NCBI RefSeq assembly: GCF_964355755.1
Contig: NC_092673.1
Coordinates: 31,813,001-31,877,000 of the forward strand
Direction of reading: 5' to 3'
Length of the DNA stretch: 64,000 nt
Source: Antedon mediterranea
Taxonomy: Eukaryota; Echinodermata; Crinoidea; Comatulida; Antedonidae
Positions 47,687 to 48,375 of the stretch are shown in pieces. The translations under genes were made by a program, and so were the position numbers. Below the pieces are notes generated by a model. The model did no database searches, was not told the origin of the DNA, and saw only the letters and a list, made by a program, of their open reading frames with translations. Within the stretch, counting starts at the first letter, position 1; every line of letters begins with the position of its first letter.

Positions 47687-47783
47687 GGTTGAAATTTTCA
47701 GACCGTTTGGATAGAGTGCTCAATACCAAGGTAGAGCATAAATAAATAAATAAAATAACAGCAGAAAACTTGGTTACTTCATT

Positions 47784-47856
47784 GTTTTAATCACTACAAA
47801 TTTGTTTCGTACGACCAGCATGTAGCTGGCCGCACTCTTCAGGTGAAATATAAAAC
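47784..47856 (-). ncRNA. Hammerhead ribozyme (type I), minus-strand copy
   Basis: Exact reverse complement of 48221-48293, with the same core residues and stems. Confidence 0.8.
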
Positions 47857-48220
47857 ATAAGTGACACAGTTGTCTCATAGTGCTTAATAGAAGTGAGTCA
47901 TCGGGAAGTCGTATACAATAGCCTATTGTTTTAGATAAACTGTTTGGATCTGCAATTTAGTAAGAATTTTTTAAATGCAAACCTTACTCAAATATTAACA
48001 AAAGATGTAATTTATGTATATATGAAAAGTATGTTATTATATGTCAACCAGAGCTATGCTCACTGAACCGTAAGAACGAGTTAGTCTCTACTTGTAGACA
48101 TAGGAAAAAATTCTTACTAAATTGCAGATCCAAACAGTTTATCTAAAACAATAGGCTATTGTATACGACTTCCCGATGACTCACTTCTATTAAGCACTAT
48201 GAGACAACTGTGTCACTTAT

Positions 48221-48293
48221 GTTTTATATTTCACCTGAAGAGTGCGGCCAGCTACATGCTGGTCGTACGAAACAAATTTGTAGTGATTAAAAC
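48221..48293 (+). ncRNA. Hammerhead ribozyme (type I), plus-strand copy
   Basis: The core CTGAAGA (48235-48241), then stem II of 11 pairs including two G-U (48242-48252 with 48258-48268, loop TACAT), then GAAAC (48269-48273), a tiny stem III (ACAAATTTGT) and the cleavage triplet GTA (48280-48282). Stem I closes between TCAC (48231-48234) and GTGA (48283-48286), and further out between GTTTT (48221-48225) and AAAAC (48289-48293) across an internal loop. Predicted self-cleavage is after A48282. A very short stem III is usual for Penelope hammerheads. Confidence 0.82.
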
Positions 48294-48321
48294 AATGAAG
48301 TAACCAAGTTTTCTGCTGTTA

Positions 48322-48332
<11 letters not shown>

Positions 48333-48375
<43 letters not shown>
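48333..48375. repeat. (TA)n tract between hammerhead repeat and 8.2-kb element
   Basis: About 21 TA units; it forms the right border of the inverted repeat and the left border of the candidate element. Confidence 0.95.

Follow-up and report, generated by a model that had tools for sequence, protein, structure and literature searches.

The perfect inverted repeat analyzed here is the 3' ends of two independently 5'-truncated copies of one element, joined head to head, and does not form a unit. It lies in a 64,000-nucleotide stretch of the genome of the crinoid Antedon mediterranea (contig NC_092673.1, forward strand, positions 31,813,001 to 31,877,000), referred to below as the window. The two hammerhead-bearing copies, apparently of a Penelope-like element, are fused within (TA)n, very probably through one insertion in which both cut strands primed the reverse transcriptase (RT) at two RNA start sites. 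A sequence-only reading of the window had recognized the hammerhead cores, the Penelope link, and the recency of the event, all of which stand, but missed that two copies are fused and that the arrangement recurs genome-wide with one L and one S end, the two alternative 3' ends described below. A long perfect inverted repeat in (TA)n of an animal genome can therefore represent one retroelement insertion and not necessarily a DNA transposon or gene conversion.

The layout of the feature is given in Table 1, where the coordinates of the family A reference are those of an observed copy in locus L044. The stretch 47742-47972 is the exact reverse complement of 48105-48335 (231 bp), with a gap of 132 bp between them. 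Both figures reproduce those first reported, and the inverted match stretches to 235 nt with one mismatch among the four added positions. The 132-bp spacer is right-copy sequence that is missing from the left copy. The arms had been described as flanked by (TA)n, which holds directly for the right arm, but on the left (TA)n is reached only beyond the 54-nt tail. The proposal of a recent event agrees with the identity of the arms and with copies elsewhere that are 98-100% alike.

Table 1. Parts of the head-to-head pair and of the right-arm hammerhead-like core, in window coordinates
Feature	Position	Strand	Basis
left (TA)n tract	47645..47683	.	sequence
L-end tail of left copy, 54 nt, homologous to start of next tandem unit	47684..47737	-	comparison of 3' ends
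left 5'-truncated family A copy, reference 2167 to 3' end	47738..47972	-	alignment to reference
left-arm hammerhead core, mirror of right-arm core	47791..47846	-	sequence, descriptor scan
head-to-head junction	47972/47973		alignment to reference
right 5'-truncated family A copy, reference 2035 to 3' end (S end)	47973..48335	+	alignment to reference
C-terminal ORF codons (GIY-YIG end) with stop; includes spacer 47973-48104	47973..48146	+	frame read from sequence
right-arm hammerhead core, predicted cleavage after 48282	48231..48286	+	sequence, fold, descriptor scan
stem I 5' strand TCAC	48231-48234	+	sequence
CTGAAGA	48235-48241	+	sequence
stem II, 11 pairs	48242-48252/48258-48268	+	sequence
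GAAA	48269-48272	+	sequence
CAAATTTG	48273-48280	+	sequence
TA	48281-48282	+	sequence
GTGA	48283-48286	+	sequence
right (TA)n tract	48333..48375	.	sequence

Each window arm contains a complete minimal type I hammerhead core in which stem I has four pairs and stem III is short. The presence of the core in both arms and its 11-pair stem II, as first described, are confirmed from the sequence, and the layout of the right-arm core leads to the same predicted cleavage site, after 48282. The 75-nt core region alone adopts a three-way fold of -21.9 kcal/mol (z -3.55, with 0 of 200 shuffles as good), and the hammerhead descriptor gives 0 matches per shuffle on shuffled sequence (five shuffles of 180,820 bases). 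The covariance-model check that had been suggested for the hammerhead fell below threshold, as no Rfam hammerhead model matches the window core at the gathering threshold or in searches up to E 5 and E 10. This negative carries little weight against a hammerhead because families B, C, D, and E also have hammerhead-like cores, in the scanned fetched loci, that Rfam misses (at gathering and to E 1). The conserved core and paired stems of a minimal type I hammerhead are found in families A, B, and E and in repeat C; the core of family E reads CTGATGA...GAAAC...GTA, and that of family D is a single sighting, in locus L042. MAFFT alignments across the hammerhead families misaligned the cores and were discarded, and stem I pairing was read by eye instead: stem I varies by family yet stays paired (UCAC/GUGA, GCAC/GUGC, GUCUC/GAGAC, UGCA/UGCA). 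The window motif is filed here as a hammerhead-like core with a putative ribozyme function. Because a 594-nt transcript across both arms folds as one long hairpin (-420.4 kcal/mol), the candidate ribozyme is probably masked in transcripts of either strand, in line with the competition between hairpin and ribozyme that had been foreseen. Elsewhere in the window, an isolated weak descriptor match on the - strand (~35627-35671) is probably due to chance.

The window copies appear to be the ends of an endonuclease-bearing Penelope-like element, a name that rests on RT and GIY-YIG, pseudo-LTRs (pLTRs), a tail, and a hammerhead. A query of the 354-Mb genome (18 contigs) with the arm, in which 40 of the 217 candidates were scored, gave at least 42 matches; the search for related Penelope or retrozyme copies that had been recommended thus finds them in abundance. 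The window arm corresponds to the 3' end of an ORF, of which the right copy keeps the C-terminal codons and the stop. Relatives of this ORF carry a GIY-YIG domain and, below the curated cut-off, an RT; the tie to Penelope-like elements first drawn from the window stands. GIY-YIG is recognized in relative P0001 (Pfam E 1e-5, above the cut-off) and RVT_1 in relative P0072 (E 9.3e-6, 25.9 bits, under the cut-off of 29.6); both regions align with the family ORFs and have invariant motifs in common with them. The ORFs of family A itself have no RT or GIY-YIG Pfam match, even to E 10, and a search of solved structures with the family ORFs returned no useful match, so the presence of RT and a C-terminal GIY-YIG in one ORF is suggested via the relatives only. 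In sister family B, locus L050 contains a 760-aa frame free of interruptions, bounded by direct pLTRs that each carry a hammerhead, and family A, that of the window copies, has a tandem at locus L070; the tandem, pseudo-LTR arrangement of Penelope-like elements is present at both. Also found are other features of that class, namely 5' truncation, an optional 3' tail, an AT-rich target, and a short target duplication, the last seen only at targets other than pure (TA)n. A metazoan retrozyme, a non-coding tandem repeat of 150-450 bp with a canonical hammerhead, was considered and rejected, since the window copies are the terminal parts of an element that codes for protein. The literature already describes the tail, head-to-head pLTRs, and hammerheads of Penelope elements, and the present element is a typical representative of that established class.

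The head-to-head arrangement is found across the genome, in counts that all come from one assembly. A 42-nt core pattern with up to three mismatches has 130 genome matches, 65 per strand, and a 3'-end pattern has at least 182, with 0 for the reversed control of each. The 3' ends considered below are the first 100 of the 182, spanning C1 to position 11.85 Mb of C7. When the 20 free tails of this stretch are added to these, 33 neighbours lie less than 6 kb apart, 29 of them head to head, two tail to tail, and two in the same direction; 50 of the 100 ends of this stretch belong to a head-to-head unit. In family B, with all 98 ends included, 21 neighbours lie close together, and by eye 16 of these are head to head. 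The loci that were read as sequence are a non-random sample, and the listed-end counts of families A and B are fairer.

The copies use two alternative 3' ends. At the S end a copy stops directly after TTATTTATTTAT, and at the L end a family A copy stops 54 nt past S, after ...TTTCAACCTGA. Both ends also occur in family B, where the tail measures 68 nt, and in family E. Within the listed stretch, 28 of 29 family A pairs combine one S with one L end (27 by pattern, and one, L056, with 6 nt deleted from its tail, by reading); the exception, L036, is L/L. The S end is on the left in 16 of the 28 and on the right in 12. All 16 family B pairs are S/L, and the 44 S/L pairs among 45 in families A and B would have a probability of 1e-12 if ends were drawn independently. 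After hand-merging of family A units, with L047 included, 39 of 41 are S/L, one is L/L, and L037 has no assigned class, although some of the 39 consist of an S copy opposite an inverted L tail only and are open to bias because S stubs shorter than ~50 nt are invisible to the pattern. An apparent L copy with an L stub at C2:18818061 was rejected, as its tail belongs to a nearer pair. The farther 5' reach was on the S arm in 11 of 21 pairs, on the L arm in 5, and equal within 10 nt in 5, a difference that is too weak and may reflect detection bias.

Many insertions are single-sided, some of them with an S end and others with an L end. Among the 11 partnerless S copies read out of 26, L048 has an interrupted L stub, L041 has an inverted internal piece, and nine have neither. 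Twelve of 24 unpaired L copies were read at the 5' side. Three of these proved to be S/L pairs (L072, L073, and L074, one with an internal deletion), six have no visible partner, with a 14-16 bp repeat seen by eye at L043 and L044 among them, and the remainder are L071 and L037, with an odd inner piece, and the L070 tandem. The second arm of L071 (150-391) begins at an internal point, reference 2179, beside (TA)n and is neither S nor L.

The two arms of a pair end at different 5' points, and arm lengths vary between loci. Nine of 20 junctions share 1-7 nt, ten have filler or mismatches, and the window junction shares none; at the 10 filler-free junctions the shared sequence averages 2.6 nt, against 0.67 by chance. 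The junction filler of L047 looks tRNA-derived. Separately, tRNA-headed SINE-like repeats with (TA)n at their 3' ends adjoin many Penelope insertions (L047 3413-3490; L042 3973-4044; L088 ~420-500). None of 77 5' ends, from loci partly chosen for carrying the ribozyme, lies within 2 nt of the predicted cleavage point at reference 2345 (two lie at 2348, both in L033), and there is therefore no sign of cleaved RNA as template. Within this same partly selected set, 19 of the 77 fall in reference 2262-2288, a 27-nt interval just upstream of the ribozyme that possibly marks the transcript 5' end or an enzyme stop.

At the outer ends, 66 of 79 distinct 3' ends in the fetched loci reach (TA)4 or longer within 12 nt. 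Repeats of 13-19 bp abut whole pairs in ~8 of 34 scanned, by eye those whose target is irregular; most targets are pure (TA)n and uninformative. Examples are TAATATATATAATA (B5), ATATATATAATAATAT (B13), and TATATTATTATAT (L060); in the same 34-pair scan, B3 and L054 have irregular targets with no clear abutting repeat. Because the repeat abuts the whole pair, these ~8 pairs look like single insertions at a staggered cut that left 3' overhangs. The arms themselves usually share a source. Rare variants are common to both arms in L033, L034, L035, and L047, and a subfamily mark is common to both in 15 of 16 family B pairs (by eye), which points to one locus, and perhaps one RNA, as the usual origin; aligned arms differ at 0 of 1377 columns in L031, 0 of 692 in L032, and 0 of 1276 in L034. 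In L095, a 62-nt family A arm that ends at S joins a family B copy that ends at L, which implies two different RNAs in one event.

Identical arms in a head-to-head palindrome are also what self-priming yields, in which a cDNA or antisense transcript folds back and is copied into an inverted repeat. Such a route is proposed for rotifer Penelope elements (PMC3846280), and the identical window arms, like those of L031, L032, and L034, are consistent with it. A fold-back, however, should not add a different 3' end, yet all but one of the 45 pairs are S/L, and it cannot fuse family A to family B as in L095. The mixed-family pair and the S/L ends largely refute self-priming for these families, and we consider it unlikely. 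We give no better prospects to a sequential form, in which one strand primes alone and the second later starts on another stretch of RNA and not on the first cDNA. Two cDNAs, S/L ends, and joins at microhomology would be expected from this form as well, but alone it leaves unexplained why the second start uses the other site near-constantly, and single-sided insertions occur as S and as L.

Nested insertions at (TA)n do exist, in L052 and L040, and would be the precedent for an origin in two separate events, with the later copy landing in or next to the earlier one. The truncated ends of pairs nevertheless abut without (TA)n between them, the great majority of close neighbours are head to head, and some whole pairs share a single flanking repeat, all of which makes this origin very improbable. 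Viewed alone, the window feature, where the inverted repeats are long and perfect and the target is AT-rich, resembles a MITE or a DNA transposon with long terminal inverted repeats. That identity is scarcely credible, since arm endpoints and lengths vary between loci and between arms with no fixed shared termini, one and the same RT/GIY-YIG frame occupies the interior in both directions, and the outer ends are unlike, S versus L. The preferred reading, a single insertion primed by both cut strands, is favoured by the 29 of 33 head-to-head neighbours, the 44 of 45 S/L pairs, the flanking repeats, the mixed pair L095, and the rare variants common to both arms; against it stand the L/L pair L036, L037, the single-sided copies, the missing repeat at B3 and L054, and the filler at 10 of 20 junctions.

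In the proposed mechanism, the GIY-YIG endonuclease would cut AT-rich DNA at staggered positions and so create 3' overhangs of ~14 nt, as the 13-19 bp repeats suggest. The overhangs would pair with UAU-rich RNA start sites, one at S and one at L, which lies 54-68 nt farther downstream; these are the positions at which copies are seen to end. Two cDNAs would then be extended in the direction of the ORF, each halting at its own point, as the different 5' ends indicate. Their 3' ends would be joined, in some cases across 1-7 nt common to both, to give a palindrome with junctions of the kind observed. Because the tail runs into the start of the next unit's ORF in the L070 tandem, the template of the L tail would have passed the 3' pLTR into the next unit, with the 3' hammerhead uncleaved before copying. 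The ribozyme would end up trapped in the palindrome hairpin, and the window copy is probably inert. A further proposal, to which we assign a little under an even chance, is that a doubled RNA start signal seats two enzyme subunits, one per cut strand, so that S/L palindromes would be the normal product of two-primer, two-start-site insertion, lone copies would be single-strand cases or remnants, and a retrozyme-like repeat in L040, which has the start signal in common, would ride along. GCUC...GAGCACU follows each start site in families A and B, so the RNA may carry such a doubled signal. Folding gives it no support, since the S-L start region of the three sequences folded was no more stable than shuffled versions (z -1.02, -0.70, and -0.52), and the start-site signal is put forward as a candidate sequence motif only.

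The purified anole Penelope protein, Poseidon PAc, cleaves and extends both strands, prefers AT-rich DNA, and initiates at two sites between which the tail lies (PMC11167929). The anole element resembles the present one in its RT and GIY-YIG, minimal-hammerhead pLTRs, tandem copies, and a tail between two RT start sites. The start sites of PAc lie inside the ORF in an AC-rich stem-loop, whereas those described here lie before the ORF and are UAU-rich. The anole start sites were not homologous to the cut DNA (PMC11167929), and the primer match between (TA)n and UAU that we infer here differs from that report. The two strands were alike in bulk in the anole study, data that are not decisive on S/L pairing because bulk cannot show pairing per molecule; start-site pairing per insertion was not examined there and is counted per pair here. 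That 2024 in vitro study considered the later insertion steps still to be validated (PMC11167929).

The Penelope elements of the rotifer Adineta vaga likewise have head-to-head inverted pLTRs, an optional tail on one of them, and AT-rich targets, and several copies have flanking duplications of 8-10 bp (PMC3846280). Hammerheads are not mentioned in the passages and Discussion of that 2013 study, whereas hammerhead cores are present here. Self-priming on an antisense template was favoured there and the choice left to experiment; here the ends were counted genome-wide, with the S/L rule and a mixed-family pair as the result. No statement of an S/L rule per insertion, and no description of a mixed-family Penelope pair, was found in the open-licence literature searched. 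The mode of Penelope insertion is unsettled, and the young set of S/L insertions, together with the flanking repeats and the mixed pair, makes it directly testable.

Metazoan retrozymes similarly carry type I hammerheads, within mobile AT-rich repeats of animal genomes, and Penelope elements have been named as candidate helpers (PMC7229834); the window copies differ in deriving from a protein-coding element with a minimal hammerhead. L040 (3255-3400 and 3840-3900) contains two units, ~577 nt apart, of a retrozyme-like repeat whose hammerhead is canonical (CTGACGA); the repeat is also seen in flanks in L046 and L052. After the ribozyme it has ATATTACGCTCCT in common with family A exactly at the L start, and its second unit ends GGATATATATATA; judging from these letters, the repeat may hitch-hike on the Penelope machinery.

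Two other retroelement-like stretches were noted in the window. A Gypsy-like element at 39253-43928 has, from its frames only, an integrase-like stretch before the reverse transcriptase, an order that we take to be that of the Gmr1 group. At 3593-8035 lies a BEL/Pao-like frame of 1480 aa, which is open though its RT part seems, by eye, to be missing.
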